The notes under the pieces are model-generated. The model was not told where the DNA came from. It worked only from the letters and a program-made list of their open reading frames with translations, and did no database searches. From a bacterium (GTDB taxonomy: Bacteria > SZUA-79 > Acidulodesulfobacterales > Acidulodesulfobacteraceae), in NCBI GenBank assembly GCA_021825865.1, contig JAKAFU010000005.1:1-63972 (forward strand): DNA of 63,972 nucleotides. The letters are read 5' to 3'. The position numbers and the translations under genes are program-made. Numbering within the stretch: the stretch's first letter is position 1; the number at the start of each line of letters is the position of its first letter. Positions 795 through 43,586 of this stretch are shown in pieces.

Positions 795-1415
795 TTATTT
801 TAGTTTTAAATTTTTCTTCATTTCTTCCATTATGCCGAGCCATATATCAATATCCGGTTTTAATTCAAATTCTATTATATCGGTTAACAGCGTATAATCT
901 GCATCTTTTTGCGTTGACATGATAGACGACAGCACTTTTTCTAAATCGCCAAAATGAGATTGTATAGATTTTTCTTTGTAAATAATATTGCTATAATCAA
1001 GCTTTGCAAATTGAGCAATTTTATCCATTATCTGAACAAAGACGGTTAATCCGTTAAGATAGCCGGCAAAATCTGTAAATCCTCCGGAATAATTGCCCCA
1101 CCTTATGCTGTCTGCAGTTTTATCGATACCTTTTTTAAACTCGTTGAAAAAAAGTATTACAGAATTTATTGACCCGTCAAGCATTTCTTTATGGCTCATA
1201 GTTGTAATTTTTATATTATCGCCATCAGATACAATCACGGCTTTTGATTTTTCCGAATCTGCCATAAGTTCGCTGTAATCGTTTCCGTTAACATCTATTT
1301 TCTTAATCAGTCTGCCTTCCGGCAAAATATCTTTAATGCTGCCGTACAAAATATCATTCATAGTCTTCCAGTCAGATAAAACTTGTACCTGATTATCATC
1401 GACAAAAAGCTGCAT
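795..1415 (-). CDS. Hypothetical protein, 206 aa, next to flagellar/sulfation genes
   Basis: I do not recognise the family. The protein is soluble, with no signal peptide or membrane segment. The N-terminal 70 residues (MQLFVDDNQVQVLSDWKTMN) look like a small beta-rich fold, and residues from about 75 on are predominantly helical with charged heptad-like stretches. A good ribosome binding site (GGAGG, 5 bases before the ATG) supports expression and this start. It sits between rarA and cysC on the same strand, at the end of the flagellar/glycosylation island, but separated from cysC by 166 bases of AT-rich repeats. A flagellar or chaperone role would be pure context inference. Confidence 0.75.
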   Translation of the reverse strand: MQLFVDDNQVQVLSDWKTMNDILYGSIKDILPEGRLIKKIDVNGNDYSELMADSEKSKAVIVSDGDNIKITTMSHKEMLDGSINSVILFFNEFKKGIDKTADSIRWGNYSGGFTDFAGYLNGLTVFVQIMDKIAQFAKLDYSNIIYKEKSIQSHFGDLEKVLSSIMSTQKDADYTLLTDIIEFELKPDIDIWLGIMEEMKKNLKLK

Positions 1416-1581: not shown

Positions 1582-2181
1582 TTATAAATTTAACAACCCA
1601 TTTTTTTTAATATAATCAATAATTTTTCTCACGGCGTCTTTAAAACATATATTCGGCGTCTTGATGTGCACATCTGCGGAAAGCGGCTTTTCATAAGGCG
1701 AATCTACTCCGGTATAATTATCTATCTCACCGTTAAATGCCTTTTTATACCAGCCTTTAGCGTCCCTTGCAGCGCAGTCGTGAAGCGGAGCATCTATAAA
1801 AACCTCCACAAAATCATCATCTCCGATAATTTCTTTTGCATATTGTCTGCCATCCCTGAAAGGCGAAATAAAGGGCACTATAGTTATGAGTCCGGCATCT
1901 GCAAAAAGTCTTGCTACTTCGGCAGTTCTTCTGATGTTTTCATTCCTGTCAAAATCAGAAAATCCCAAATCCGTATTGAGCCTATGCCTGATATTATCAC
2001 CGTCCATGAGGTATGTATGAAATTTTTTTTTATGCAGCTCTGCTTCCAGCAAGCCGGCGATAGTGCTTTTTCCGCTTCCGCTCAGTCCTGTAAACCATAA
2101 AACAAAACCGCCGTGTCCGTTTAACTTTTCCCTGTCTTTCCGCTTTACAATATGTTTTTGCCAGATAATGTTTGAAGTCAT
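1582..2181 (-). CDS. cysC: Adenylylsulfate kinase (APS kinase)
   Basis: Phosphorylates adenosine 5'-phosphosulfate with ATP to give PAPS, the universal sulfuryl donor. The 199-aa length is normal for stand-alone CysC. P-loop GLSGSGKST is at residues 32-40. It is followed by the family motifs MDGDNIRHRLNTDLGFS and RDEN-type NENIRR, then FISPFRDGR and the lid region KGWYKKAFNGEIDNYTGVD. No ATP sulfurylase or PAPS reductase is nearby. Instead the gene lies just downstream of a sulfotransferase, so PAPS made here most likely feeds sulfation rather than assimilation. The intervening spacer holds a 40-bp tandem repeat. Confidence 0.96.
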   Translation of the reverse strand: MTSNIIWQKHIVKRKDREKLNGHGGFVLWFTGLSGSGKSTIAGLLEAELHKKKFHTYLMDGDNIRHRLNTDLGFSDFDRNENIRRTAEVARLFADAGLITIVPFISPFRDGRQYAKEIIGDDDFVEVFIDAPLHDCAARDAKGWYKKAFNGEIDNYTGVDSPYEKPLSADVHIKTPNICFKDAVRKIIDYIKKNGLLNL

Positions 2182-2240
2182 TTTTTATCTTTTTATCTTA
2201 TCTATTTTTATTTATTTCAATTTATTTTTGTTTATTTTTA

Positions 2241-2320
2241 TTGTTTTATATTTATTTACATTTATTTTAAGTTATTTTTATTGTTTTATATTTATTTACA
2301 TTTATTTTAAGTTATTTTTA
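2241..2320. repeat. 40-bp perfect tandem duplication abutting the sulfotransferase stop codon
   Basis: Two identical 40-bp units (2241-2280 and 2281-2320, starting TTGTTTTATATTTATTTACA) lie between cysC and the sulfotransferase. The last three bases of the second unit are the sulfotransferase stop codon on the minus strand, so the duplication copied the very end of the gene and its 3' flank. Confidence 0.95.
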
Positions 2321-3316
2321 TTGTTTAGAGAGCACATCAATAGTTTTGCTGAGCTCCGCTATTTTATTATCTTTGTCTATAAGCACTTCATTCATGGCAA
2401 GTAATGTATTATAGGAAGCCTGCATAAAAAAAATAGTAGAACGCAGTTCTTTAAGCCATATTTTAATTCTCATAAACTCTCTGGCAACATTTAAATCTGT
2501 TATAGAAAAATCTTCCGAACATAATTTTCTTAATAAAATGTAAAATTCCGCAACCTTCGGCGGTATATTCTCATCAATTCTTAAATCTTCAATAGTAAAA
2601 GCGGCATGCCTCATACTATTCGTTAAAAAATCCGTCATATATTCTTTAAAAGCAGGGTTATTTTCATGGTCTATTTTAAGTTTTAGCCGTAATGCAATTT
2701 TTAGGAGCTGCGCCTCAGGATTTTCAAGCATATCGTCGTAATCGACAAAAACAGAGTCAAATCTGAATATAGGGTTCAAAATACAGTCTAAAACAGAAAC
2801 CATACCGCTCAGCCATATATAATATGCAATGATGATATCCATATTTCCCCGCTTAACCATAGAAGAAGCAGAGCTTTTCGGATTTCTGCAGACAACAACA
2901 AACGAGACATTCAATTTAAGTTCATTGAAAATTTCCTGCCATATTGGCAGCAGCTTCGCAATAAACGGGTCTTTAAAACCAAAAATATCTGTATTGCTTA
3001 ATCGTTCTTTAAGAATATTTTTAGCAGTATCTTTAAAAATAGTTATAGCCTTTTCCGGTATATTTCTCAAATTTATTAAAATTGCATTATCCGGTTTGCC
3101 TGTTAACATTTTTAACAATCCATAATTAAGCGAATTAATATCTGCATCCTCAAAAAAACCTTTTTCATTTCCCACATCCGGCGGATTATAAAGAGCTTTT
3201 CCAATGTCTATGCCGAGCGCATCAAGTCCCTTAGCGATAGCGCTCGTTCCGCTTCTCGGCACTCCGACTACTGCTATAATGCGTTTTTCTTCAGTTCCTG
3301 TATATTCCTTATTCAT
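2318..3316 (-). CDS. PAPS-dependent sulfotransferase family protein
   Basis: A 332-aa protein with the sulfotransferase nucleotide-binding signature: 5'-phosphosulfate loop GVPRSGTSAIAKG at residues 18-30 and a 3'-phosphate-binding segment CRNPKSSASS near 143-152. The family transfers sulfate from PAPS to hydroxyl groups of glycans, peptides or small molecules. The 60 C-terminal residues form a probable coiled coil (IDKDNKIAELSKTIDVLSKQ). It lies immediately upstream of cysC on the same strand and downstream of glycosyltransferases and flagellin genes. A sulfated surface glycan, possibly on flagellin, is the favoured but unproven target. The start codon itself is included in a 72-bp tandem duplication. 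Confidence 0.85.
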   Translation of the reverse strand: MNKEYTGTEEKRIIAVVGVPRSGTSAIAKGLDALGIDIGKALYNPPDVGNEKGFFEDADINSLNYGLLKMLTGKPDNAILINLRNIPEKAITIFKDTAKNILKERLSNTDIFGFKDPFIAKLLPIWQEIFNELKLNVSFVVVCRNPKSSASSMVKRGNMDIIIAYYIWLSGMVSVLDCILNPIFRFDSVFVDYDDMLENPEAQLLKIALRLKLKIDHENNPAFKEYMTDFLTNSMRHAAFTIEDLRIDENIPPKVAEFYILLRKLCSEDFSITDLNVAREFMRIKIWLKELRSTIFFMQASYNTLLAMNEVLIDKDNKIAELSKTIDVLSKQ

Positions 3317-3454
3317 AATTCAGAATATTATAATAAATACAAGCATATTGAATTATATCTTATTATATTTGCGCATATCTTCATTTATAATCTAGAATAT
3401 TACGATAAATACAAGCGTATTTTATTATATCTTATTATATTTGTGAATATCTTC
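3311..3454. repeat. 72-bp tandem duplication covering the sulfotransferase start codon
   Basis: Copy A is 3311-3382 and copy B 3383-3454. They have equal length and differ at only a handful of bases. Copy A contains the ATG and second codon of the sulfotransferase (ATG at 3316-3314). In copy B, which lies upstream on the minus strand, the corresponding triplet is mutated to ATA. Confidence 0.9.
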
Positions 3455-3482
3455 TTAATATTCGCTGTAAATAGATTACAGA

Positions 3483-3530
3483 AGATTTAATTATAGATTT
3501 AATTATAGATTTAATTATAGATTTAATTAT
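3483..3530. repeat. 12-bp tandem repeat, four exact copies
   Basis: Four copies of AGATTTAATTAT run head to tail, followed by a partial copy. The repeat lies in the spacer between the GT9 glycosyltransferase stop at 3557 and the sulfotransferase leader. Confidence 0.93.
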
Positions 3531-3556
3531 AGATTTTTGATCTAAAAATTTTAAAT

Positions 3557-5611
3557 TTATTTCTCTATCTTATTAATTCTGCCGGTTCTGTATTTTATCG
3601 AAAGTTTATCAAAAAATAGCGACCATATTTTCTTGAATATGAGCAGCTGGTGTTTATAACCGCTGTAATTCTTCAGCAAATCCACAGCCATGCCGAATAT
3701 GTCATAACTGACGGTACTGTTTAAATTTATAACATGAATATAATTTATGAGACACAGTTCATCGTAAGGCGATGAAATATGCTGCAGATTATAATCTATA
3801 GATTTCATATCAGTCATTACGTCATCTATTTTTTTCAAGTTAAGAGGGTCGTTTAAAGCTACATTTACCAAATTTTTTGCTTCATTCATACCTTCCTCGC
3901 ATAAACAGAGCATATCATCAATAGTACTGATTTCGTCATCTACGCCGCCTTCCGCATCGTAAGCATCATATATATCTGTAAATTCGCTGAAACAACCAAT
4001 AAAAAGGTCTATTTCATGATATATTCCGCTATTCTTGTCATAACCGCCATTATTATTATTGTTCTTGTTGTTACTTTCTTCATTAATGTTGTTATTATTA
4101 TCAACAGCGCCATTATTACTGTTGCTGTTATTGCTTTTTTTATTACTATTGTTATTATTACCATCGCTGCGGCCGTCTGTCTTGTTTTTCTTGTCTGAAT
4201 TAAGTTTAAAATCTTGTATATAAAAATATTCGAGCGAAAGTTTTAAAATCCTCAGTTTTAGAGCTTTAAGCGTAAGTCTGCCTCCGGCTGCAGGCAAAAA
4301 GTCGATAAATCCGTTCGCATCAAATCTTGAAATGTATGGTATGATACCGCTATTTTTGTATTTTAAAAAATATTCTTTAGCATCTGCAAAATCGGAAACA
4401 TCAGAGAGACTTGAAACGCCTGAAATATTAGAATTATTAGAAATATTAGAAATATTCGCAATATTAAGATTCTTTTCCAATTTAGTTTTTGCAATATCAA
4501 AAATATATTCCGGTTTAATAAGATTTTTGCAGACAGGATTCATGCACTTAATATGAAAATCGCATGGAAAGCAGCTGATATCCGGCGTAACAAGCGCCAT
4601 ATTTTCGGCGTAAGGTCCTGTTTCCATAAATCCGACGTGTCCGGTATAAATAACTATAAGGTCTATATGCAGACCGACACCTATATGCATTGTTCCGGTA
4701 TCGTGAGTAATAAGGAGTTTGCTCGCTCCCACGGTATAAATCAGACCTGCGATAGATGTTTTGCCTGTAAGATTTATGAGTCTTTGAGCTGATGTGCATT
4801 CTTTGCCGGTTTCTGTTTCGGCAATTTTTTTTTCTATATAGAGTCCGTTTTCTATATCATAAGGGGCGCCCAATAGTACTATTTTTATTTTAGCGTTGTA
4901 ATTTAAAAGCATACGGGCAAGTGAGGCAAAATAATCCATATGCCATTTCTTTGACTTTATCGAAGCGCCTATTGCAAAAGATACTATTATATCCCCTGCA
5001 TCCGGTCTTATGCCGTATTCTTTTAAATTATTTTTGAATTTTGCAATAGTTCTATTCTTAAAAGACAGCGCTATCTCATTTCTGTCTGCAGCATAATATT
5101 TATTTCTGTTTTCAGGCAGTCCGTCAAGACATCTTGCATAAATATCTACAAGATTTAAGACGCTTGCTTTTCTGTTTCTGACCGCAGAAAACAAATATGC
5201 TATCATTTTATCGTTAGAAACTATATTTCCTTCGCGGGTTATAGAAATACCGATATTTCTTTTAGAATTCAGCATATAAAGAAAATAGACGCTGAATTCG
5301 TCATGCGAAAGATTTATAGCTACGTCGTATTTTATATTTTTAATTTCATCTGAAATAGCAGCGTTGACGGCTTCATATACGGCAGAATTAAATTCAAAGT
5401 TTGTAGATTTCAACATTTCGGTTAGCTCTTTTAAATTCACCTGCCTTATATCGTCTATATATGGCAAAAAAGGCGTTATTTCATAAAATTCAGTCGAAAT
5501 GATAAGCGTGACGATACTTTCGGGGTAAAAGAACTTTATTTTTTGAAATAAGGCGGTTGATTGTATAATATCGCCCATTCTGGTGAGATTTAATATTACA
5601 ACCCTTTTCAT
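3557..5611 (-). CDS. Glycosyltransferase family 9 (heptosyltransferase-like) with long C-terminal extension
   Basis: The N-terminal ~370 residues look like a GT9/ADP-heptose:LPS heptosyltransferase. The start is MKRVVILNLTRMGDIIQSTA and the donor-binding segment is THDTGTMHIGVGL. A cysteine-rich segment (DISCFPCDFHIKCMNPVCKN) follows, seen in GT9 enzymes outside LPS loci. Residues ~380-405 are Asn/Ser rich, and ~474-527 form an asparagine-dominated linker; the final 150 residues are unrecognised. At 684 aa it is about twice a normal heptosyltransferase. Neighbours on the same strand are another glycosyltransferase and flagellar filament genes, so flagellin or surface glycosylation is more likely than core LPS synthesis. 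The donor sugar cannot be told from sequence. Confidence 0.85.
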   Translation of the reverse strand: MKRVVILNLTRMGDIIQSTALFQKIKFFYPESIVTLIISTEFYEITPFLPYIDDIRQVNLKELTEMLKSTNFEFNSAVYEAVNAAISDEIKNIKYDVAINLSHDEFSVYFLYMLNSKRNIGISITREGNIVSNDKMIAYLFSAVRNRKASVLNLVDIYARCLDGLPENRNKYYAADRNEIALSFKNRTIAKFKNNLKEYGIRPDAGDIIVSFAIGASIKSKKWHMDYFASLARMLLNYNAKIKIVLLGAPYDIENGLYIEKKIAETETGKECTSAQRLINLTGKTSIAGLIYTVGASKLLITHDTGTMHIGVGLHIDLIVIYTGHVGFMETGPYAENMALVTPDISCFPCDFHIKCMNPVCKNLIKPEYIFDIAKTKLEKNLNIANISNISNNSNISGVSSLSDVSDFADAKEYFLKYKNSGIIPYISRFDANGFIDFLPAAGGRLTLKALKLRILKLSLEYFYIQDFKLNSDKKNKTDGRSDGNNNNSNKKSNNSNSNNGAVDNNNNINEESNNKNNNNNGGYDKNSGIYHEIDLFIGCFSEFTDIYDAYDAEGGVDDEISTIDDMLCLCEEGMNEAKNLVNVALNDPLNLKKIDDVMTDMKSIDYNLQHISSPYDELCLINYIHVINLNSTVSYDIFGMAVDLLKNYSGYKHQLLIFKKIWSLFFDKLSIKYRTGRINKIEK

Positions 5612-5680
5612 AAAACTTTTAATCCTGTTTTGACGTCATTTTTCACAGTCATTGTGTTCTCATCCGCTGTAATGTTTTGA

Positions 5681-7834
5681 TTATGAATCTTCATGGTCTT
5701 TCTCTAATCTTGCGGCGCGGGCTTTCAGCGACCACAGCATAAGGAGCATAGCCTCTGTTTTTGACAGCCTTCCCTTGCCTCTCCTGATATAATCAACCAG
5801 CTCGGCTATAGAAACGGAGCCCTTGCCTTTGAATACCTTAATCAGGCTGTGCAGCTCAGGTTCTTTTTCCGTTTCCTTAAGAAGTTTTAATATATTTTCG
5901 CGTCTCGATACAAGCTTATTTTTTATAACATCATAGGAATTTAAGAGTATTATATTCATCATTTCGGAAACACGCCGTTCGTAAGTATGATGTTTTCTGA
6001 CGGTATTGTAGCCGTGTTTGGCGATAGTTGACCGTTCAGCTTCGTTATCTAAATAATAGCGTATTTTTTTTCTTAAATCTTCCACACTATCAAATACTAC
6101 TAGGTCTTTGCCGTCTTCAAAAATACCTTTTAAATATCTGCGCCTATCAACGAGCTGGAATCCGCCGCAGCCAAGTATCTCATAAACGCGCGGATTTAAA
6201 AAATCTCCGTCGGGGTTTATATCCCAATGCCACATGGATGAATGAAGATTAATATTTATCTTTGAATAATTATATATCTTTACAGCTTCTTCTTCGGTGA
6301 AACGTTTTCCGCCGTCCTGTATTAAAAGGCTCAAAGGCATATCGGCTATCCAGTCGTTGCCCCATATTTTAAAATTAAAATCGGTAAGTTTTGCAAATAC
6401 GTTTTTCCTGTTAAAATAGCCTGCGCCTGCAAAACTCACATCGCTGCCGTATTTTTTTTCATCATCTTCATCATATTTATTGACATTATTATCTGCGGTA
6501 TCGTTATTATTACGCTTATTATTGATATTGCTGTTATTATATTTATTATTAGCATCGTTGTTATCTATAGCATTGCTGTTATTATAGTTATTGTTGATAT
6601 CGTTCTTATCTAGAATAGCATACCCGCTATTATAAACAGCGTTATCGTTATTATAGTTTTTATCGGCGGCGCTATTGTCTGCATCATTGCTGTTGTTTTT
6701 GACGATTTTATCATGGAATGACGGAAGACAGGCAAGAGGCATATAATAAAAATTATGCAGACCCATATTCTCCAGTTCTTTAAAAAATTCATCCTTCTGG
6801 ATTGTGAAAAAATAATCAACATGTTTAGCTATGCCGCTCCAATAGGTGAGCGTTCTGAAATCTTCTACAAACCAGTATGCCGTAATTATTCCCATATTCC
6901 TGAGTCTTAAAATAACCCTCTCTGTCGCAGGCGACTGTGCCATAAATAGCACCATATCGGGCGGATTGTTCATCACTGCCGAAAGGAGGGCTTCGGACAT
7001 GAGATTTGAAAGCATCTGCCTTAATGAATTAATATGGTCTTCATTCCGGGTAAATTCGTTCAGATACTTATAGCCGTCGTAAAATCTGGAAAAATCTATA
7101 ATATCTGCGTTATATCCGCAATTCAGAAAAGCCTTGTATATATAATTTCCTACTGTGGAAGAACCGCCGTACATAGGCTGGGCTATAAGAACCCTGAAAG
7201 AGGAAGGACTAAAAAACTGATTTATATTAAACATCTTATGCATGCGGGCATATTCGTTTTTAAAAATATTTTTATATGAAATAAGTTCAAATAATTGCCG
7301 GTCGGTTTCGCCGAATACAATATCTTTTTCAGACACGGAAATCAATATTTCATTATATAGCAATTCTGAAACGTCACAGCTGCTCAGTATAAAATTAAGA
7401 GATTCCATTGAGGGTTCAACTACGGAAATTTTATGCGGATTTATCTCTCCAAATCTGTCTTCAAGCAGCTTTATGAGCTCTTTTATATGATAGCCGAAAC
7501 CGAGTCCGAAGATAATAATCTTTTCCGGCTTTTCGTGTTTTTTAGCGTACTTTTCAATTACGGAGGCTGCCCATTTTTTTCCTTCCGCAACCGGGTCGTA
7601 CGCCGAATGTACAGTGATGCCGTTGATTTTAAAAGTAGCACAGCCGCAGTATTCATGCGGCATACCTGTTTTCGCCGGCAGAAGTTCAAATGTTAATTTT
7701 GTGTCTTGTTCCGAATTTCTGCCGGATGATTTACGAAAAACTAAAATCTTTTCTAATAAAACCGGATTGATTTTCTTTAAAATTTCGGCATTCTTTTCAA
7801 AATAATTTTTAGCATCCATATCTATTATACTCAT
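5681..7834 (-). CDS. CgeB-like glycosyltransferase (DUF3880 plus GT1-type C-terminal domain)
   Basis: A 717-aa multidomain protein. Residues ~60-200 resemble the DUF115-like nucleotide-binding region of motility-associated proteins (IIFGLGFGYHIKELIKLLE). From ~217 (RVLIAQPMYGGSSTVGNYI) to ~370 is a DUF3880-type domain. Residues ~378-456 are an Asn-rich linker. From ~465 is a CgeB/GT1-type C-terminal domain (VSFAGAGYFNRKNVF, NPRVYEILGCGGFQLVD, HTYERR). The combination is common in proteins near flagellin genes, where they are thought to glycosylate filament protein. It is 70 bases upstream of the 684-aa GT9-like gene on the same strand. Acceptor and donor are unknown. Confidence 0.83.
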   Translation of the reverse strand: MSIIDMDAKNYFEKNAEILKKINPVLLEKILVFRKSSGRNSEQDTKLTFELLPAKTGMPHEYCGCATFKINGITVHSAYDPVAEGKKWAASVIEKYAKKHEKPEKIIIFGLGFGYHIKELIKLLEDRFGEINPHKISVVEPSMESLNFILSSCDVSELLYNEILISVSEKDIVFGETDRQLFELISYKNIFKNEYARMHKMFNINQFFSPSSFRVLIAQPMYGGSSTVGNYIYKAFLNCGYNADIIDFSRFYDGYKYLNEFTRNEDHINSLRQMLSNLMSEALLSAVMNNPPDMVLFMAQSPATERVILRLRNMGIITAYWFVEDFRTLTYWSGIAKHVDYFFTIQKDEFFKELENMGLHNFYYMPLACLPSFHDKIVKNNSNDADNSAADKNYNNDNAVYNSGYAILDKNDINNNYNNSNAIDNNDANNKYNNSNINNKRNNNDTADNNVNKYDEDDEKKYGSDVSFAGAGYFNRKNVFAKLTDFNFKIWGNDWIADMPLSLLIQDGGKRFTEEEAVKIYNYSKININLHSSMWHWDINPDGDFLNPRVYEILGCGGFQLVDRRRYLKGIFEDGKDLVVFDSVEDLRKKIRYYLDNEAERSTIAKHGYNTVRKHHTYERRVSEMMNIILLNSYDVIKNKLVSRRENILKLLKETEKEPELHSLIKVFKGKGSVSIAELVDYIRRGKGRLSKTEAMLLMLWSLKARAARLEKDHEDS

Positions 7835-7900
7835 ACCTGTTATATACCTGCACTTATTTCTATATAGACTGCATCTAAGCTAATTTTCGCAACAATAAAA

Positions 7901-8016
7901 TACCTAATAATATTAAGTAATGTCCGTTATATCAAACAATATCATGTTATACTAAACAATGTCCGGTATATTAAGCAATACCTAATAATATTAAGTAATG
8001 TCCGTTATATCAAACA
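7901..8016. repeat. 38-bp direct repeat with 78-bp period, plus degenerate short repeats
   Basis: An identical 38-bp block (TACCTAATAATATTAAGTAA onward) occurs at 7901-7938 and 7979-8016. The whole spacer 7895-8110 between the two glycosyltransferase genes is built from degenerate ~18-20 bp variants of AACAATATCATGTTATAC and AATGTCCGGTATATTAAGC. No array of spacers is present, so this is not CRISPR. Confidence 0.85.
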
Positions 8017-8119
8017 GTATCGGTTATACAAACAATATCATGTTATACCGATAAGTATCAGGTATATCAAGCAATACCAAATAGTATAAGATAATATCAG
8101 ACAACATCAAGTTGTCCGG

Positions 8120-10024
8120 TCAATAGCGCCGAAGCTGCATTAAAATATTTACCGCCATATTTAAAAGCAAAACTATATCGTTAAAAGTTTTTTCTATAAA
8201 TTCTGAGCCGCCATCAGAACATGCATATGCGTTTTCATCTATGCTTGAACCTGAACCGCAACATGGGTTAGAATCTAAACTTGAGCCTGAGTTTATACAG
8301 AAATCGAGCTCATCAATAAAATAATCTGTAACAAGTTTTAAGTATTCATAATTGCGGCCTATTTCTTTTATTGCTTTCTTAAACCTGTCAAAATACCGAG
8401 CGTCAGAACTGTTTCCCATATTATCCGAATTGTCCGAATTATTTGCCGTTTCGCCGCCTTGCCCTGCAAAAGAAAGCTTTCCGTTTTCAAAAATGGTTAT
8501 AACGAAAGATATTTCCGACAATAATTCTTCCGGAGACGCCGTGCCTATTTTATAATATTTTTTACAATTTTTCAAAATATTATCAATGTCGAGCTCAACG
8601 ACGCATCCTGAAAGAATATAAATCCAGCAGTATTTTAGAATTTCAGATGCCAATTCATTTTTATTTATATATTTTTTTACCAAAGGGTAGTAATGGATAG
8701 AACCTGCATTGGCGCAAAAAAAAACTTCGGAATTACCTTTCTTGATATTGGATATAAGCTCTTTTCTTACAGTACCGCTTTTTCTCAGCGTCATAACAGC
8801 CAGCAAAAATACATCTTCAGGTCTTATATCATTTTTGCATGAAAAATTATATCTGCACAGTTCATGTTCTAAGCACGGATAGCAAGCTGCCTTAGAGCAT
8901 ATAGCATAAGATTTGTTTAAATGGGGACCTGTTTCGTAAAAATTTGCGTTACCGATGAAAATAGAAACTGCCGGCACCTGTAAAATCTGAGCTATATGAA
9001 GCGTGCCTGTATCTGTCGATATTATAAGGTCAAAATCTTTAATTATATAAATAAGCTCGCTTAATGAAGTTTTTCCGGTTATATCTATTATTTTTTTTTT
9101 AATATTCTCTTTATCGCATAAACTGCTTATATTCTCAGTAATATTTGTATTATTATTATGCGGGTCAGATAATCGTGAAAACAGCAAATCTTTAACTGCA
9201 GCAGCAGCTGGAACGTCTTCCTTAGCGCCTACAAAAGTTATTTCGCAGTCAAAATGTTTCAGCAGAAGTTCTGTAAGTTTTGAATAATTTTCTGTACCCC
9301 ATAATCTTTTTTCTGATGATGCGCCTGTCGAAATACATATTCTAAACTTGCTTCTATTTTTTTTATTTTTGTTTTCAGTGTTAGACTTTAATTTTAAAAT
9401 ATCATAATTTATTTTTAATTCAGCCGGCTTATTAAGACCTATAAGAGAAAATATATCAATTATATTGAGTTTATTGAGTTTTCTGTTTTTGACGGAATTA
9501 TAAAAATAATTAGACGCTCCGCGACGCAAAAGAGCTTCGGAAGTTTTAACGGATTTATTAAGACATATAAAGCCTTTTTTATCCGCATGAACAAAAAAAT
9601 CCAATAAAAGACCGCTTAAAATGTCATAATTAAGATTTATAGCCAGACTGTATTTACTTAATAGAAGGAAAATGCGGGACTTTACGTTATCAAAGAAACT
9701 AAAAAAATCTAAATCATTCCGGCGGTTATAATCTTCATAATCCGCCGAAAACAAATCTTTAACTGTTATAAGTTTAATATCGTCGATTAAAAAATCTTTT
9801 ATAGCCGTGATATTAGTATCAACAAATACATCTATTGCAGCTTTCTTTTCTATTTCTTCTTCTTTTTTTAATTTTTCTTTCTCTTTTAATTCCTCTTTGT
9901 TGTTTGCTGTTTCATTAATATTTTTTATGCTTGTCTGTACATAGAGACTATTTATTAAAGGAATAGACTGAAAAAAATCGCCGACCCTTCTCATCTGAAA
10001 AACAAATACTGCGCTATTACCCAT
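8120..10024 (-). CDS. Glycosyltransferase family 9 (heptosyltransferase-like), second copy
   Basis: 634 aa with the same plan as the 684-aa protein downstream. The N-terminus is GT9-like (VFVFQMRRVGDFFQSIPLIN) and the donor site is ISTDTGTLHIAQIL near residue 340. A Cys-rich segment follows (SKAACYPCLEHELCRYNFSC). The C-terminal ~230 residues are long and unrecognised, rich in Ser/Gly/Asn near the end. Low-complexity Lys/Glu runs (residues ~38-62) and Asn-rich runs (~212-225, ~290-300) interrupt the catalytic domain. No signal peptide is seen. It is the first gene downstream of fliS on the same strand, which ties it to filament biogenesis. Confidence 0.83.
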   Translation of the reverse strand: MGNSAVFVFQMRRVGDFFQSIPLINSLYVQTSIKNINETANNKEELKEKEKLKKEEEIEKKAAIDVFVDTNITAIKDFLIDDIKLITVKDLFSADYEDYNRRNDLDFFSFFDNVKSRIFLLLSKYSLAINLNYDILSGLLLDFFVHADKKGFICLNKSVKTSEALLRRGASNYFYNSVKNRKLNKLNIIDIFSLIGLNKPAELKINYDILKLKSNTENKNKKNRSKFRICISTGASSEKRLWGTENYSKLTELLLKHFDCEITFVGAKEDVPAAAAVKDLLFSRLSDPHNNNTNITENISSLCDKENIKKKIIDITGKTSLSELIYIIKDFDLIISTDTGTLHIAQILQVPAVSIFIGNANFYETGPHLNKSYAICSKAACYPCLEHELCRYNFSCKNDIRPEDVFLLAVMTLRKSGTVRKELISNIKKGNSEVFFCANAGSIHYYPLVKKYINKNELASEILKYCWIYILSGCVVELDIDNILKNCKKYYKIGTASPEELLSEISFVITIFENGKLSFAGQGGETANNSDNSDNMGNSSDARYFDRFKKAIKEIGRNYEYLKLVTDYFIDELDFCINSGSSLDSNPCCGSGSSIDENAYACSDGGSEFIEKTFNDIVLLLNMAVNILMQLRRY

Positions 10025-10279
10025 TCATTTATGTTTTATTTAAGTTATAATATATAATTAATTAATATCTGCTTCATATTAATCTTAGTCATTTAATTTA
10101 TACAGCAATACCGTTTTTTTGACTGTGTCTGCTTTTACTTGATTCAGTTTTTATTTTTAACAGCTTACTTCTGCTCCGAGTTCTATGCTTACGACTATCT
10201 TTATATTAATTATTTAATGCTTAATCCTGTTTTTTCTTAAAACAGTCTGCGCAGCTTTACTTTTTTTTACACGCAATAA

Positions 10280-10747
10280 TTATACGCGGCTTGATACCGA
10301 TGACACTGATGCGTTGAGGGTATCAATAGCAGCCGAACCTTCAGGTACGGCATTAGCTAACGCCGCCATACGCTGTTTTTCTTTCTCTAAAATTATTTTC
10401 CAGCCGTTTGCAAGGTTTTCTAAAACCACTAAAGATTCGTCAAGCTTATGAGAATCCTTCTTCAGATTTGCGGTAGTGAGGTGATATGATAAAAAAACAT
10501 AAAGCTTGCCAAGATTTTTTGCGGTTTCTCCGCCTTTCTCCATATTAAGATTTAAATTCAGCTCATTTATCAAAGCAACGGCATTAGATATAGCAATAGA
10601 TTTCCCCGCATAATCATTCTGCGCAAGTTTTTCTTTTGCCTGTTGAATAAAAGTAATGGCCCCTTCATATGCCATTAAAATAACAGTTCCGTTATCTATT
10701 GTAGAAGCTGCAACATTTTGATATTGATACGCGCCGGTGTTAAGCAT
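10280..10747 (-). CDS. fliS: Flagellin export chaperone FliS
   Basis: 155-aa helical cytoplasmic chaperone that binds the flagellin C-terminus and prevents premature polymerisation. Family motifs are visible: the N-terminal AYQYQNV, VILMAYEGAITFIQQAKEKL, and AISNAVALINELNLNLNMEKGGE followed by LGKLYVFLSYHLTTANL. Its length is slightly above the usual ~130 owing to a C-terminal tail rich in Ala/Ser. A GGGAG ribosome binding site precedes the ATG. It lies downstream of fliD, in the usual fliD-fliS order. Confidence 0.95.
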   Translation of the reverse strand: MLNTGAYQYQNVAASTIDNGTVILMAYEGAITFIQQAKEKLAQNDYAGKSIAISNAVALINELNLNLNMEKGGETAKNLGKLYVFLSYHLTTANLKKDSHKLDESLVVLENLANGWKIILEKEKQRMAALANAVPEGSAAIDTLNASVSSVSSRV

Positions 10748-10903
10748 AATCTTTTTTTGCTCCCTTTTAAAAATACAATTTTCATTTTATTTTAAAATTA
10801 GACAATATTAAATTCTTTTTCAATTTATTTAAATTAAATTTGTTCTATATTTAATTTAAATTTAAAATATTTATTCATCAAATCTAATTAAGAGCAAATC
10901 TAA

Positions 10904-12379
10904 TTAACCGCCTGTGGTTGTTGACGGCATCTGACCTATCTGGCTTGCCAATGCGGCACTTGTAGTTTTCATCTCTCCGACGTACTGTTCTAACGCTGCG
11001 AACTGTTTTACATACATCCCCATCTGCTGCTGCACCATTGCAGTTTGAGAAGCAATCTGATTATTCATATTTTTAAGCTGCGAATTAATCTGCTGCTGTT
11101 CAAAATATATAACTCCGCTTGCCGGATTAGTGTAAGAATTTAAAAAATTAGTCATTCCTCCATTCTCGGAAACACCGTCGGCTGTCGGAGAGCCGTTTGC
11201 AAGAGCGCTGAAAAATTGCTGAACCTGCTGAGGATCTGATGTCAGCATACTGTTCAACGTCGTCGTATTAAGCTTCAGCTGACCGGAACCGTCCGCATTT
11301 TCAGTAATTCCGTATGTTGAAGCAAGTCCGCTGCTGCCCGTCATGCCCGGAGCCTCGCTTCCCATAAAACTGTATAAACTGTTTACAAGGCTGGCGAGCG
11401 CAGGATTGCCGCCTAGCGGTCCTGTTGATTTAGTATTCGTATTGTATGCCTGTTGAGACGACACGTCGCTTAGCAGCTTATTATAAGAAGATACAAAATT
11501 ATTTACGGCAGAATCTATCGCATTTGTATTAAGTCCAACCGTAATAGTAGTAGAACCTGTAGAAGCAAGATTTAGTGTTACGCCCGGAATAACGTCATTA
11601 ACTGTATTGGACTGGCTCGTAATACTTATTCCGCCATAAGTCAAAGATGCATTTTGAGCTGCCTGCTTCGTTGTAAAACTAAGATCGGTAGCGGTAGAAC
11701 CCGAAGCAAGCGTCGGAGAAGTTACAGATATATCGTTATTCGTTCCGGTATTATTACTGGTCAGCACAAGCTGGTACGGGTCGGTAGAGCTGCCGTTATT
11801 TATAATAGATGCGCTGACTCCGGCATCCGAATTGTTTATTGCCTGAGAAAGATCGGCAAGCGTATAACCGGTGGAAGAATTTAAAGCCACATCGGTTGTT
11901 TTTCCATTTACCGTTATATCATAAGTTCCTGTAGCTCCTGAGCTGGACACCGCAGTCGAAGTTGCCGCAACTCCCTGAGAAGCCATAACATCCTGAGTAG
12001 CTAGAGCGCTGACGCTTAAACTGTAAGTCCCCGGAATCGCCGATGACGAAGCAGTTGCCGTTGCTACCGAAGAATCGCTTGATGCAGCCGTATATGTATT
12101 AAACAGCGAAGTCTGACCCAACGCGGCGGCAGAAGAATTTAAATTGGACGCAGCCGAACTTATAGTATTCCATGCACTCAATTCACTGTTTAAAGGAGAT
12201 TCCTGGTCTTTCATCAGCGTAATAGGTTCTGAAAGACTTTTATCTATTGCATTGAGCAAGGTAGTATAATCTATTCCGGAAGACAGCCCCGTACCGGCAA
12301 CTATTAATCCCTGATTAGGATATGAAATAGGAGTGCTTCCGCTGCTTGCAGCACTGCTGCTTAATGAAGGGACAGACAT
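10904..12379 (-). CDS. fliD: Flagellar hook-associated protein 2 / filament cap FliD
   Basis: 491-aa filament cap protein that folds exported flagellin at the growing tip. The N-terminal signature GLSSGIDYTTLLNAIDKSLSEPI is followed by DQESPLNSELSAWNTISSA, matching FliD_N. A Ser/Thr/Ala-rich central part resembles D2-D3. The C-terminal coiled-coil portion (residues ~270-480: AVNNFVSSYNKLLSDV, LNSYTNPASGVI, MYVKQFAALEQYVGEM) matches FliD_C. There is no signal peptide, as expected for type III export. AAGGAGG lies 7 bases before the ATG. Strong Ala/Ser/Thr bias is typical of filament proteins and offers O-glycosylation sites. Confidence 0.95.
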   Translation of the reverse strand: MSVPSLSSSAASSGSTPISYPNQGLIVAGTGLSSGIDYTTLLNAIDKSLSEPITLMKDQESPLNSELSAWNTISSAASNLNSSAAALGQTSLFNTYTAASSDSSVATATASSSAIPGTYSLSVSALATQDVMASQGVAATSTAVSSSGATGTYDITVNGKTTDVALNSSTGYTLADLSQAINNSDAGVSASIINNGSSTDPYQLVLTSNNTGTNNDISVTSPTLASGSTATDLSFTTKQAAQNASLTYGGISITSQSNTVNDVIPGVTLNLASTGSTTITVGLNTNAIDSAVNNFVSSYNKLLSDVSSQQAYNTNTKSTGPLGGNPALASLVNSLYSFMGSEAPGMTGSSGLASTYGITENADGSGQLKLNTTTLNSMLTSDPQQVQQFFSALANGSPTADGVSENGGMTNFLNSYTNPASGVIYFEQQQINSQLKNMNNQIASQTAMVQQQMGMYVKQFAALEQYVGEMKTTSAALASQIGQMPSTTTGG

Positions 12380-12551
12380 TTACATCGCCTCCTTAACTTA
12401 TCTTTAATATATAAATAATTTAAATAATATATAAACAATATAAATTAAAATAAAAACAACAAAAAATAACAAATAAAAAAAATCAAACTAACTGTAAACT
12501 ATATAAACTTTATATTCAGTATTATAATTTAATACCGCTAATCTGCAATTT

Positions 12552-13016
12552 TTATAATTTCTCGTTCAGCAATGCCCCTTTCTGGTAATGAGCCATCATG
12601 TACTTTATAAACTCCTCTGACGGGATTTGAGACTCGACTTTTCCGGTTTTTGAATTAACTATATCTATAACTGTCCCGCCTGCTTTCGGGTCCCATTTAA
12701 AAAGAGTTAATGTCGAAAGTGCAGGAACGGGGTTAAAACTTTGTTTTATCTCAGTCTTAAGAACCTCCTGTAAATTTTTATTTGCCTCGACAGCCGGCGC
12801 AACCGTGCTTTTAACTGCAGACTGAACGCTGTCTGTATTTTGCACATAGTTTGCAGGGACAGAAATCCCATTAGCAGTATCAGATTTTACCTTTGCTAAA
12901 ACTGGCTGCACACTTTGCACATTTTGTACATTACCTGCATAATGAACAGCCGCTTTATCAGAAAAGCCTGTCTGCTGAATACTTATCGAATTTAGACTAT
13001 CTGCTATATTATTCAT
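12552..13016 (-). CDS. flaG: FlaG family protein
   Basis: FlaG proteins affect flagellar filament length. The C-terminal domain shows the family pattern VIDIVNSKTGKVESQIPSEE followed by a short helix. The N-terminal ~100 residues are a poorly conserved, Gln/Asn/Val-rich linker. I chose ATG at 13016 over the in-frame GTG at 13025 because the AGGCGG ribosome binding site (13030-13025) would overlap the GTG but sits 8 bases from the ATG. The gene lies between flagellin and fliD on the same strand. Confidence 0.87.
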   Translation of the reverse strand: MNNIADSLNSISIQQTGFSDKAAVHYAGNVQNVQSVQPVLAKVKSDTANGISVPANYVQNTDSVQSAVKSTVAPAVEANKNLQEVLKTEIKQSFNPVPALSTLTLFKWDPKAGGTVIDIVNSKTGKVESQIPSEEFIKYMMAHYQKGALLNEKL

Positions 13017-13087
13017 AGCACACACCGCCTTTTTTTTGTGTCTTCTGTCCGCAGCAAAAAATATGAAAACACTGTTTACGGAATCAA

Positions 13088-13109
13088 CCCGCGGTTTTTA
13101 CACCGCGGG
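13088..13109 (-). promoter_or_regulatory. GC-rich hairpin between flagellin and flaG
   Basis: Perfect 8-bp inverted repeat CCCGCGGT / ACCGCGGG with a 6-base loop, exceptional in this AT-rich DNA. It is 69 bases after the flagellin stop and 72 before flaG. No U-run follows, so it is not a classic intrinsic terminator. It could stabilise the 3' end of abundant flagellin mRNA or act as a partial terminator. A TATAAT at 13130-13135 on the minus strand, preceded by TTGTG, could start a separate flaG transcript. Confidence 0.6.
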
Positions 13110-13177
13110 AATCCCAATTATCAATATGCATTATACACAACTTTCACGTTTCATTTATTTCAGACATTACCTGTTTA

Positions 13178-14083
13178 TTATATTGCCCTTACTAAATTTA
13201 AAAGCCCCTGGTTGACCGTTGATGCCTGAGAAAGCATAGCCTCGCCCGACTGGGCTAATGTTGAAAGCAGCGTATATTGAGACGTCTGTTGAGCGAAATT
13301 AACGTCCATAATATTATCGTACGCCGCAGAAGTATTTGTGCCTTCCGTCTGAAGATTAGCCATAATCTGCGTAACCCTGTTCTGATAAGAACCGAGCTGA
13401 CCGCTTATCCCCGAAACCTGGTTTATAGCAGCCTGAACAGCCGAAAGAGCAACCAGCGCAGAGGTATTATCGGTAGTTGAACCAACAAGGTTTACATTGT
13501 TTAAAGATGAATTAATCACAGTACCGCCAGAAGATGCCAATCCAAGAAGACCAGCGGCTACACCCTGTATAGATACGGAAATCTGGCTTGTAGCAGTATC
13601 TGAATTAGTACCTATCTGAAATGTAAAATCACTTACACCGATAGTGCTGCCACTGCCGCCGGTCAGAAGATTAAGACCGTTAAACGACGTAGAGCTTGCT
13701 ATCTGGGTAATTTCCGAAGCAAGCTGAGAAAATTCGCTTTGAAGCGCCTGCAAATTTTGAGTGCTGTTAGTGCCGTTCGCAGCATTAGTGGCAAGCGTCT
13801 GCATAGTACCGAGCATACCCTGAATTGTCGATAATGCGCCCGAAGCAATGTTAATTAAAGAGTTGCCGTTGTTTGCGTTTGCCGTTGCCTGCGTAATACC
13901 AAGACCTGTCGCATTTAACCCCTGAGCTATTTCATATCCTGCAGGATTAACCCATGCGCCCGTAATTTGAAGACCGCTGGAAAGTTCGTTTAACGACTGA
14001 CCTAACTGGTTATTAGTATTTTGAAGATTTGTTTCTGCAATAACCGCAGACTGGTTTGAGTTGATAAATAGACCGTTGTACAT
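13178..14083 (-). CDS. fliC: Flagellin
   Basis: 301-aa structural subunit of the flagellar filament. The N-terminal D0/D1 helices (residues ~1-130: NLQNTNNQLGQSLNELSSGL) and C-terminal D1/D0 helices (~215-301, ending ANLQTEG and LLNLVRAI) are conserved, with only a small variable domain between. The usual N-terminal stretch with a DDAAG-type core after the SSGL motif is replaced by GAWVNPAGYEIAQGL, an unusual version. There are no cysteines and Ser/Thr/Asn are abundant. CGGAGG precedes the ATG by 8 bases. It is probably secreted by the flagellar type III apparatus with FliS. Adjacent glycosyltransferases suggest that it is glycosylated. Confidence 0.95.
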   Translation of the reverse strand: MYNGLFINSNQSAVIAETNLQNTNNQLGQSLNELSSGLQITGAWVNPAGYEIAQGLNATGLGITQATANANNGNSLINIASGALSTIQGMLGTMQTLATNAANGTNSTQNLQALQSEFSQLASEITQIASSTSFNGLNLLTGGSGSTIGVSDFTFQIGTNSDTATSQISVSIQGVAAGLLGLASSGGTVINSSLNNVNLVGSTTDNTSALVALSAVQAAINQVSGISGQLGSYQNRVTQIMANLQTEGTNTSAAYDNIMDVNFAQQTSQYTLLSTLAQSGEAMLSQASTVNQGLLNLVRAI

Positions 14084-14107
14084 TTTTTTATCCTCCGTGA
14101 TAAATTA

Positions 14108-14127
14108 TTTTGCCTTCCGTGGCAAAA
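14108..14127 (-). promoter_or_regulatory. Hairpin in the flagellin 5' leader
   Basis: Perfect 7-bp stem TTTTGCC / GGCAAAA with loop ACGGAA (minus-strand reading), ending 24 bases before the flagellin start codon and just upstream of the ribosome binding site. It may protect the leader from 5' decay or be a target for a post-transcriptional regulator; function is inferred from position only. Confidence 0.5.
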
Positions 14128-14152
14128 CTTTTAATTAATTTAAACTAATTAA

Positions 14153-14181
14153 TTTAAACCGCTTCAACCTTAAACTGTCAA
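14153..14181 (-). promoter_or_regulatory. Candidate sigma-70-type promoter of flagellin
   Basis: On the minus strand TTGACA (14181-14176), a 17-base spacer and TTTAAA (14158-14153) give a perfect -35 and a 4/6 -10 box, about 70 bases before the flagellin start. No convincing sigma-28 (TAAA-N15-GCCGATAA) or sigma-54 promoter was seen. If correct, flagellin here would not depend on FliA. Confidence 0.35.
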
Positions 14182-14285
14182 CATTAACAGCTTTTTTACT
14201 TTCCCTTATTTATTTATCGTCACTAACCAAAAAAAACTTTAATCTTTTTTAACTTATTTAATTTAATTATTATTTAATTATTTAA

Positions 14286-16070
14286 TTAGAAACTTTTCAT
14301 CCATATATCAGCCATAGCTTTCTCAAAATTTTCAGCAAATTTTGCACCGTCAAATAATGGCGACTTAAGAGAAATATTCCTGAGATTTGCCCGTAAATCT
14401 GCAAGTACGGCAATATCCGAGCTGTTCTCTTTTGCCTTTTTTATATAATCTTCTTTATTTTGCGCTACAAAATGCGGTATACCGACATTATTTGCTATGC
14501 TTTCGCCGACCCTTGATACAAACCTGTCTCCTTTCAGCGTTAATATCGGCACACCCATATATACCGACTCCGCGCCTGTAACACCCCCGTTATAAGGAAA
14601 AGGGTCAAGCGAGATGTCGATTTTATTATAAGAAGCAAGTAGCTCCGCCCTCGGCGAGGCTCCTTCTAAAGTTATCCTTTTTCCTGCTTCCGCCACACCA
14701 TTATCTTTAAATTTTTTAAGCAGAATATCCCGTACGTTTTGAGCTCCTAACTGCTTTGTCTTTAGAAACAGCCTTGCAGCAGGAATTTGCAGCAGTATTT
14801 CTGACCATAGCGCTATAACCTCATCGTTAATCTTGGCAAGATTATTAAAACAGCCGAAAGTTATAAAACCGTTCCTCAGAGCCGGCAGTATTTCCACTTC
14901 AGGTGCTTCACGCGGAGGCGCAAGACATATATATGAGCCGCAGAGTCTGTATATTTTTTCGTTGAAACGGCTTTCTTCGCTTTTAGGTGAAGTATAATAA
15001 TCTCCTATGAAATAATCAATTTCTTTTACTCCGGTACTTGCAGGATATCCAAGCCAGCTTGCCTGCACCGGCGCAGGCTTATACGCAAAAATAGGCAGCC
15101 TGTTGAATCTCGTATGTCCTGATAAATCAAACAGAATGTTAATGCCGTCTTTGAAGATTATACGTGCAGATTCTTCATCATTCTTATCATAAATAGCCGT
15201 CCACTTTTTAAAATAAGGTTTTATTTTCCATGTCAGTTCGTCTTCGGCATTATGCGCGCTGTAAGCATACAGCTCTACATTTTTTATACTGCTAAGCATA
15301 TTTTCCAGCAAAAGACCTACTGCATGATTCCTAAAATCCCCGGAAACAAAACCGATTTTCAGTTTATCCCCTGATTTCGGCATATTATGATTTGTAAATT
15401 TACGGTTAACGCGAGAACTTATTAACCCGCTATATTTTCCTGCACACTTTTCATAATATGAAATGCTGAAATCGGGATTATAATTCATACCCATAAGTAT
15501 ATTATCGTAAGCCTGCAAACTATCCGGCTTTAACTTAAGCGCACAAATATAGCAAAGCTGAGCTTTTGACTGAGCGCCTGTATCATTAAACGCGTTGCCT
15601 AAATTGTAATAGGCTTCTGCAAAATCCGGTTTAAGTTCAATAGCTCTCAGACAGACAGCCTGTGCGTCAAATGGTCTGCCGATATTGTTCAGAACACTGC
15701 CCAGATTATGATATGCTATGGCAAGGTCGGGCTGCAGTTCTATTGCTTTCAAACAGTAAATCTGCGCTTCCCTATATCTGTTTATGTCCTGCAGCGCAGC
15801 CGATAAATTGCTGTATATAATTGCATCAGCGGGAGCCAGTTCTATTGCTTTCTGCATGGCTCCTATAGATTCAAGGGTTCTGCCTTGCATTTTTAAGATT
15901 GCGCCAAGCGCTTTCCAACCAAAAGCACAATCTGGAAATTTTTCTGTCATACTGAGGGCAGCAATCTGTGCTTCGGCGTAATTTCCGCTATCAAAAAGCG
16001 CAGCTACCGCCTCTTTATACTTATCTTGCTCATCGAAACATTCGATAGTTGCCGCCTTGTAATTTTTCAT
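14286..16070 (-). CDS. TPR repeat protein with GT41 (O-GlcNAc transferase/SPINDLY-like) catalytic domain
   Basis: 594 aa. Residues ~15-190 hold about five tetratricopeptide repeats of the type AIELAPADAIIYSNLSAALQ. The C-terminal part from ~235 has the GT41 catalytic features: GFVSGDFRNHAVGLLLENML, LFDLSGHTRFNRLPIF, PVQASWLGYPASTGVKEIDY and FNNLAKIND, then a GVTGAESVYMGVPILTLKG segment. Such enzymes transfer GlcNAc or fucose to Ser/Thr of proteins in the cytoplasm. It is the gene directly upstream of flagellin on the same strand, which makes flagellin the most likely acceptor. Donor specificity is not readable from sequence. Confidence 0.92.
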   Translation of the reverse strand: MKNYKAATIECFDEQDKYKEAVAALFDSGNYAEAQIAALSMTEKFPDCAFGWKALGAILKMQGRTLESIGAMQKAIELAPADAIIYSNLSAALQDINRYREAQIYCLKAIELQPDLAIAYHNLGSVLNNIGRPFDAQAVCLRAIELKPDFAEAYYNLGNAFNDTGAQSKAQLCYICALKLKPDSLQAYDNILMGMNYNPDFSISYYEKCAGKYSGLISSRVNRKFTNHNMPKSGDKLKIGFVSGDFRNHAVGLLLENMLSSIKNVELYAYSAHNAEDELTWKIKPYFKKWTAIYDKNDEESARIIFKDGINILFDLSGHTRFNRLPIFAYKPAPVQASWLGYPASTGVKEIDYFIGDYYTSPKSEESRFNEKIYRLCGSYICLAPPREAPEVEILPALRNGFITFGCFNNLAKINDEVIALWSEILLQIPAARLFLKTKQLGAQNVRDILLKKFKDNGVAEAGKRITLEGASPRAELLASYNKIDISLDPFPYNGGVTGAESVYMGVPILTLKGDRFVSRVGESIANNVGIPHFVAQNKEDYIKKAKENSSDIAVLADLRANLRNISLKSPLFDGAKFAENFEKAMADIWMKSF

Positions 16071-43250: not shown

Positions 43251-43586
43251 CTATTTTAACCCTTCAAGCCAATTTGCTATCTGAGAAAGTTCCTCCGGCG
43301 GCATATCCGGACTTGGCGGCATTGAAGAAGTCGGATGTAGAATCTGATTTTTTATCTGAATGTAGCTCAGCAGCGAACCGACATTGGAAAGATTGGAGCC
43401 GTTTTTATTTCCTTTGTCGTATATTCTGTGGCAGTAAAAACAGCCTGCAATTTTAAAATCTTCATATCCTTGTCCGGTAAATACGTCAGGTATTTGCGGC
43501 GTAATGGCGCTTACGCTATTTTCAGGAGTTGCCGTGCGAGGCGCTGCAGGGCTGTAAGTCTGCGGCGGCGCAATACTTAACTGCAT
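43251..43586 (-). CDS. Cytochrome c-like domain without its own signal peptide (probably frameshifted from the VWA gene)
   Basis: 111 aa. A heme motif CFYCH (residues 49-53), a candidate distal Met at 89 or 95 (SSMPPSPDMPPEELSQI) and the terminal helix ANWLEGLK are typical of a small class I cytochrome c. It has no signal peptide and no ribosome binding site, and its start lies inside the last codons of the VWA frame (10-base overlap). Reading upstream in this frame gives KIPRLMQLSI, which fits a VWA-family C-terminal strand better than the annotated VWA end. It may thus be the C-terminal domain of a broken or recoded fusion. Confidence 0.65.
   Translation of the reverse strand: MQLSIAPPQTYSPAAPRTATPENSVSAITPQIPDVFTGQGYEDFKIAGCFYCHRIYDKGNKNGSNLSNVGSLLSYIQIKNQILHPTSSMPPSPDMPPEELSQIANWLEGLK

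Follow-up and report, generated by a model that had tools for sequence, protein, structure and literature searches.

A probable flagellar glycosylation operon with a predicted sulfation module in the Acidulodesulfobacteraceae

We analyzed a stretch of 63,972 nucleotides (hereafter, the window) that makes up the whole of contig C53 in a metagenome-assembled genome (MAG) of the Acidulodesulfobacteraceae (1.9 Mb, 90.5% complete). The lineage consists of uncultured acid-mine bacteria, and a group studied in acid mine drainage (PMC6776010) is likely the same as that of the window. On the minus strand, from position 16070 down to 795, a run of genes encodes a GT41-type glycosyltransferase with tetratricopeptide repeats (TPR), flagellin, FlaG, FliD, FliS, a GT9-type glycosyltransferase (GT9b), a CgeB-like glycosyltransferase, a second GT9-type enzyme (GT9a), a sulfotransferase, CysC and a protein of 206 amino acids (aa). 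Judging from the genes, this island is probably a flagellar-filament glycosylation operon equipped with its own sulfation module, dependent on 3′-phosphoadenosine 5′-phosphosulfate (PAPS).

An earlier note on this DNA had listed ten of these genes and proposed that an O-linked filament glycan is capped by sulfate. All ten are true open reading frames (ORFs) on the minus strand, and their coordinates and names hold in ORF, Pfam and NCBIfam analysis. ORFs and domains also bear out the position of the sulfotransferase and cysC genes at the end of a same-strand block of flagellin and glycosyltransferase genes, and Pfam agrees with the description of three of the glycosyltransferases (two GT9 proteins with a long C-terminal extension, and one protein with DUF3880 and Glyco_trans_1_2 domains). 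The conserved gene for the 206-aa protein (hyp206) was absent from that list.

Conservation of the gene neighborhood

Sixty-one related genomes were searched for homologues of the sulfotransferase, and the DNA around the matches was then read. Among them, close homologues were found in the window's own family only. In all 22 family copies the sulfotransferase gene adjoins GT9a and/or hyp206, and every contig that is long enough continues from the sulfotransferase into flagellar genes (14 of 14; the other eight contigs end earlier). Of the 20 copies that could be tested, 19 have cysC as the next gene; in the remaining one, G018 (L044), an FkbH-like gene takes this place. This order is kept across genera, down to ~42% sulfotransferase identity, a degree of conservation far beyond chance.

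In the second main genus, hyp206 stands between GT9a and the sulfotransferase. There, intergenic distances along the stretch between fliS and cysC mostly range from −23 to +47 bp, and gene ends overlap at the junction of hyp206 with the sulfotransferase and at several junctions of the sulfotransferase with cysC. We read such tight spacing as the signature of one transcript. Past cysC, relatives carry genes for GT2 megaproteins, FkbH-like proteins, UDP-galactopyranose mutase-like proteins and CDP-glucose-type functions (assigned by eye, and by Pfam for some); these variable genes would fit an extendable glycan.

The GT41 gene, which the earlier note had counted as part of the system, falls outside the conserved unit: it is present in G005, but the interval from AroK to flagellin contains none in G002, in G006 or in the other genera. 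O-linkage and a terminal position of the sulfate, also proposed in that note, are conjectural. The core of the proposal, a tie between sulfation and flagellar glycosylation, is well supported by conserved gene order, by shared presence and absence, by operon spacing and by an independent case at a flagellin locus, described below.

Presence, absence and decay with flagellin

Co-occurrence was scored over 30 family genomes, 23 with flagellin and seven without (four of the seven at least 91% complete). The sulfotransferase was found in 17 of the 23 flagellin-positive genomes, true cysC in 19 and hyp206 in 22, versus none of the seven flagellin-negative genomes in each case (Fisher p 8e-4, 2e-4 and 4e-6, respectively; as the genomes are related MAGs, these values overstate independence). 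The glycosyltransferase block is co-located and co-inherited with flagellin. One exception is G021, an 86% complete bin in which the CgeB-like gene is present and no flagellin was found.

Of the six flagellin-positive genomes without this sulfotransferase, G002, G012 and G025 keep the glycosyltransferase block and hyp206, and GT2-type genes come next. In G027, the contig ends within GT9a. G009 has lost the sulfotransferase, and what is left of its cysC is a 159-aa remnant that lacks the P-loop and is preceded by decayed sequence (L058:5468-6239). This looks like the joint decay of a functional pair, with a sequencing error being possible in that long-contig MAG. In G007, the sulfotransferase slot right after hyp206 encodes a 249-aa protein (L135:4367-5116) that has a sulfotransferase-like P-loop, HIGTHKTGTTALQ, and matches no Pfam family.

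Identity of the sulfotransferase

By Pfam, the assignment of the sulfotransferase is weak. The window protein scores 21.0 bits against Sulfotransfer_1 (cut-off 22), and the orthologue L040 clears the cut-off with 23.0 bits. A sequence search of the PDB with the single protein gave no match, and a profile gave borderline matches only (5x2b, E=0.03). Motifs and predicted fold make the assignment firm. Among 18 homologues, neither the 5′ PAPS motif GVxRSGTS nor the 3′ motif R144...S152 shows any variation, and both are unchanged across three divergent sulfotransferase types. In known sulfotransferases, the Arg and Ser of the 3′ phosphate motif are eight residues apart, as are R144 and S152. When the AlphaFold model (pLDDT 82, pTM 0.80) was compared with the PDB by Foldseek, the seven matches at E<1e-3 were all sulfotransferases, with TM-scores of only 0.38-0.51. 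These matches are sulfotransferase domains of polyketide synthases and tyrosylprotein sulfotransferases, with 14-18% identity. No membrane segment is apparent in the protein.

CysC and the sulfate donor

The identity of CysC, a predicted adenylylsulfate (APS) kinase, is certain: it scores 238 bits against TIGR00455 (cut-off 138.7), and its P-loop, GLSGSGKST, is intact. The island gene is the sole true cysC of the window's genome. The statement in the earlier note that sulfate-assimilation genes are missing is correct for the window; the genome has an ATP sulfurylase gene (sat) on another contig (C58), adjoining ORFs read by eye as aprB, aprA and qmoA. Because sat stands beside aprBA-qmoA, a dissimilatory arrangement, APS is available in the cell.

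The single CysD/CysH-like domain of the window's genome, a candidate for competing PAPS consumer, is fused to a sulfatase-like domain. PAPS reductases have a catalytic C-terminal tail, KECGLH. The copy in the window's genome runs off its contig, and complete homologues end in ...MDKLRxLGYF, without the KECGLH tail. The candidate was therefore set aside, and PAPS is left with one obvious use, sulfation. The fusion gene itself (G000:C73, L071:1-2394, minus strand) joins an N-terminal domain of the sulfatase/alkaline-phosphatase type to a CysD/CysH-like PP-loop domain in a protein of about 770-860 aa, whose C-terminus is ...GYF as in CysD. Homologues (L124, L125, L126, L127 and L128) are present in the two main genera; none was found in the flagellin-less genomes tested (G008, G010 and G014).

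A second, distinct cysC was detected at L056, L066 and L070 (from G002, G004 and G005) in a polysaccharide cluster with GDP-mannose-dehydratase, GDP-fucose-synthase and flippase-like genes. Different sulfotransferase-like genes lie near it, as does a CysQ-like gene in G002. Two systems for sulfated glycans thus appear to coexist in some relatives.

In-place exchange of sulfotransferase types

Loci of the second-genus type harbor two types of sulfotransferase, 75-100% identical within types and 42-47% between them. Different types are found in loci whose GT9a proteins are 95-99% identical. When the DNA of L052 and L038 was compared, identity was 95% and 92% through GT9a and hyp206, no alignment was obtained over the sulfotransferase, and identity rose again to 87% in cysC. 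The pair L051/L043 shows the same pattern of alignable flanks around a sulfotransferase that does not align. In such swaps, alleles of 44-47% identity lie between flanks that share 87-95% of their DNA sequence. A GT9a tree of 15 loci involves five type changes, at least four of them forced by strongly supported branches. Some bins hold contigs from more than one strain; since the breaks lie within single contigs of independent MAGs, however, mis-binning cannot make them.

We conclude from these comparisons that the sulfotransferase, which presumably sets specificity, is replaced in place, much as serotype-converting genes are. As exchange between lineages occurs at a fixed site, lineages probably differ, in a serotype-like manner, in which position or sugar is sulfated. 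On whether the filament's pattern of sulfation can be switched like a serotype, with the glycosyltransferases and the kinase staying while the sulfotransferase swaps by recombination, the evidence leaves us evenly divided. Such a swap is what selection by phages or predators on the surface chemistry of the filament would lead one to expect.

A Maf-like domain and the 206-aa protein

The N-terminal part of the CgeB-like enzyme resembles that of Maf flagellin glycosyltransferases: it approaches PF20157 (Maf_flag10_N) with 22.0 bits (cut-off 23.5), three of five members match, and it also aligns with a Maf protein from a different family (E=3e-6). The MptE-like (DUF115) catalytic core of Maf proteins was not detected, and the core is of the DUF3880/Glyco_trans_1_2 kind. 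In that other family (G055, L136:4400-6952) the gene order is flagellin, FliD, FliS, a homologue of the 206-aa protein and Maf, and both the MptE-like core and Maf_flag10_N are above cut-off in the Maf protein. With a Maf-like N-terminus in the island and a 206-aa homologue beside a true Maf, the island therefore looks like a Maf-type system whose core has been replaced by a CgeB-type GT-B glycosyltransferase.

The 206-aa protein is a probable helper of flagellar glycosyltransferases, and the position of its distant homologue between FliS and Maf suggests a conserved partner of Maf-type flagellin glycosyltransferases that has gone unrecognized. Pfam gave no convincing match; with the model, Foldseek found some weak likeness to ThiS (E=0.06) and otherwise generic helical bundles. 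As these matches are weak or generic, we claim no function from the fold.

Homologues outside the family

A single scan of GTDB genomes yielded about 30 sulfotransferase loci outside the family. Homologues in Pseudomonas, one member of the Gallionellales and one delta MAG lie within clusters for O-antigen and ATP-binding cassette (ABC) export, in many cases forming one domain of a large glycosyltransferase. In Pseudomonas (L094-L098), the sulfotransferase is 38-41% identical and cysC is the next gene.

One of the outside loci is a flagellin locus, that of the betaproteobacterium Parasulfuritortus cantonensis LSR1 (L108:2447-15759). Its order is flagellin-(?)-FlbT-FlaF-methyltransferase-GT2, followed by a protein with methyltransferase, Sulfotransfer_3 and RgpF parts, and then a FliK-like gene; the 20 kb read at this locus contain no cysC. 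From its gene order, we take it as an independent flagellin-sulfotransferase association in a named strain. The search for flagellin at the other outside loci relied solely on proteins of the window and on sequence motifs, so that distant flagellins could be missed. A comparison of neighborhoods of the pair, as suggested by the earlier note, thus gives a divided answer: within the family, the pair is without exception next to the flagellar glycosyltransferase block, while outside it the homologues whose neighbors were read are found mostly in O-antigen/ABC-export clusters, some with cysC, and once beside flagellin.

Features of the window

The genes of the island are listed in Table 1. Scans of the window for promoters and terminators performed no better than shuffles and are not relied on here. 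Five window proteins (3557-5611, 5681-7834, 43577-44764, 45967-47085 and 51851-53509) contain low-complexity inserts rich in Asn (9-14 Asn per 20 residues). Such inserts are also found in other members of the window's genus and are rare in the other genera inspected.

Table 1. Genes of the island, with coordinates in the window and the evidence for each assignment.
Gene or product	Coordinates	Strand	Evidence and remarks
hyp206, 206-aa conserved protein	795..1415	-	Small N-terminal strand domain and four-helix bundle (model); AlphaFold pLDDT 90
cysC, adenylylsulfate (APS) kinase, predicted to make PAPS	1582..2181	-	PF01583 3e-63; apsK equivalog TIGR00455
Predicted PAPS-dependent sulfotransferase	2318..3316	-	GVxRSGTS; R144...S152; AlphaFold; Foldseek
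GT9a, GT9-type glycosyltransferase with long extension C-terminal to GT9 domain	3557..5611	-	PF01075 1.2e-17; conserved order
CgeB/DUF3880-type GT-B glycosyltransferase with Maf-like N-terminal domain	5681..7834	-	PF13524 4e-35; PF12996 7e-8; Maf_flag10_N 1.3e-4
GT9b, GT9-type glycosyltransferase with long extension C-terminal to GT9 domain	8120..10024	-	PF01075 1.1e-19
fliS, flagellin export chaperone	10280..10747	-	PF02561 9.9e-31; TIGR00208 above cut-off
fliD, filament cap	10904..12379	-	PF07195; PF02465
flaG	12552..13025	-	PF03646 1.6e-7
Flagellin, presumed acceptor	13178..14083	-	PF00669 (Flagellin_N) 2.6e-28; 301 aa, 23% Ser+Thr
TPR-GT41 glycosyltransferase, accessory	14286..16070	-	PF13844 3.5e-50; part of genus only

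Discussion

Several observations weigh against the predicted filament sulfation module. Matches of the sulfotransferase to Pfam families are borderline, and the genomes behind the co-occurrence are relatives. The spacing between glycan genes in the window (69-285 bp) is looser than in the other main genus. Six flagellin-positive genomes do not have this sulfotransferase; sulfation is therefore not essential for having flagella. Outside the family, most of the homologues whose neighbors were read belong to O-antigen clusters. The latter point, which includes the nearest outside homologues, invites the explanation that the pair modifies another surface glycan (lipopolysaccharide O-antigen or capsule) and that its place behind the flagellar genes is incidental, and the adjacent cysC in Pseudomonas and the generic nucleotide-sugar genes downstream in some relatives would agree with it. 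We consider it unlikely: in relatives, the pair appears translationally coupled to the flagellar glycosyltransferases, both genes are lost wherever flagellin is lost, the island has no flippase or exporter gene, and several relatives own a separate polysaccharide cluster with a different cysC and other sulfotransferase-like genes.

The acceptor might also be the flagellin protein itself, for instance at tyrosine, as human and tick tyrosylprotein sulfotransferases are among the Foldseek matches. This is very unlikely, because 14-18% identity is uninformative on the acceptor, the gene always lies inside a glycosyltransferase block, and homologues outside the family are domains or neighbors of O-antigen glycosyltransferases, which we count in favor of a glycan acceptor. 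Even less probable is that the sulfotransferase fold is used otherwise (on another acceptor, or as an inactive protein) and the filament glycan is unsulfated; borderline family scores would allow this, but the invariance of both PAPS motifs over three divergent types and the persistent pairing with cysC argue against it. Least probable, finally, is a CysC devoted to general sulfur metabolism (assimilatory PAPS reduction) whose position is incidental. A CysD/CysH-like domain does exist in the genome as a fusion, but the reductase tail is missing from its complete homologues, seven family genomes live without cysC, and cysC decays in G009 where the sulfotransferase is lost.

The identities, order, spacing and co-occurrence of the genes, the exchange of alleles and the source of APS are observed. 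In the scheme that we favor, sulfation of a flagellar glycan, the acceptor, the linkage, the order of reactions and the physiological effect are what we infer from the genes: (i). The CgeB-type transferase, assisted by the 206-aa protein, would attach sugars to flagellin, and perhaps to FliD, in the cytosol ahead of export. (ii). The two GT9-type enzymes would extend the glycan, joined in relatives by further GT2, FkbH and nucleotide-sugar genes. (iii). Sat, an enzyme of sulfate reduction, would supply APS, which CysC would phosphorylate to PAPS. (iv). The adjacent sulfotransferase, predicted to be soluble, would move the sulfo group onto a sugar. (v). Sulfated flagellin would be exported and polymerized into a more negatively charged filament.

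Parts of this scheme have counterparts in known systems. Rhizobial NodPQ-NodH/NoeE and Xanthomonas RaxPQ-RaxST place a dedicated PAPS supply beside a dedicated sulfotransferase that modifies Nod factors or the RaxX peptide. The island likewise pairs a supply gene with a sulfotransferase; however, the Nod and Rax acceptors are not flagella, and their supply includes ATP sulfurylase, whereas that of the island consists of the APS kinase only, because Sat is already present. The O-antigen clusters of Pseudomonas share a homologous sulfotransferase and an adjacent cysC, but their product is an ABC-exported O-antigen, the sulfotransferase is fused to glycosyltransferase domains and no flagellar genes lie nearby. 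In Maf-type (motility accessory factor) systems, such as that of Aeromonas caviae, flagellin is glycosylated in the cytosol prior to its export (PMC4065374). The island resembles Maf-type systems in its location beside fliD and fliS, in the Maf-like N-terminal domain of its CgeB-like enzyme and in the 206-aa protein, whose homologue adjoins a true Maf; it departs from them in having a CgeB-type GT-B enzyme in place of the MptE-like domain, two GT9 enzymes and an added sulfation module.

The closest parallel in function is archaeal. In Halobacterium salinarum, the N-linked glycan of the archaellin is sulfated by VNG1056C and VNG1057C, and their loss has a partial effect on motility (PMC11980604). 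Sulfotransferases that act on the glycan of a swimming filament, predicted from genes in the island, are thus common to both; the archaellum is, however, unrelated, its glycan is an N-linked tetrasaccharide and one of the enzymes is membrane-associated. Aside from this archaeal case, we found in the open-access literature no description of a sulfated bacterial flagellin or of a sulfotransferase in a flagellin glycosylation island. A study of acid mine drainage counts fliC and fliD among the most abundant transcripts of Ca. Acidulodesulfobacterales, likely the group of the window, which agrees with the favored scheme; its main text mentions neither glycosyl- terms nor sulfotransferases (PMC6776010).

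The swap of the sulfotransferase, its loss and decay in G009 and the independent betaproteobacterial case linked to flagellin are new relative to the earlier note. Loci that differ through this swap provide a ready-made comparison between surface types of the filament, and P. cantonensis LSR1 is an accessible system with a related arrangement for testing filament sulfation. If the module works as proposed, a sulfate reducer would divert APS, an intermediate of its energy metabolism, to the decoration of its filament in a very acidic environment; at such pH, sulfate esters would stay negatively charged while carboxylates are protonated.

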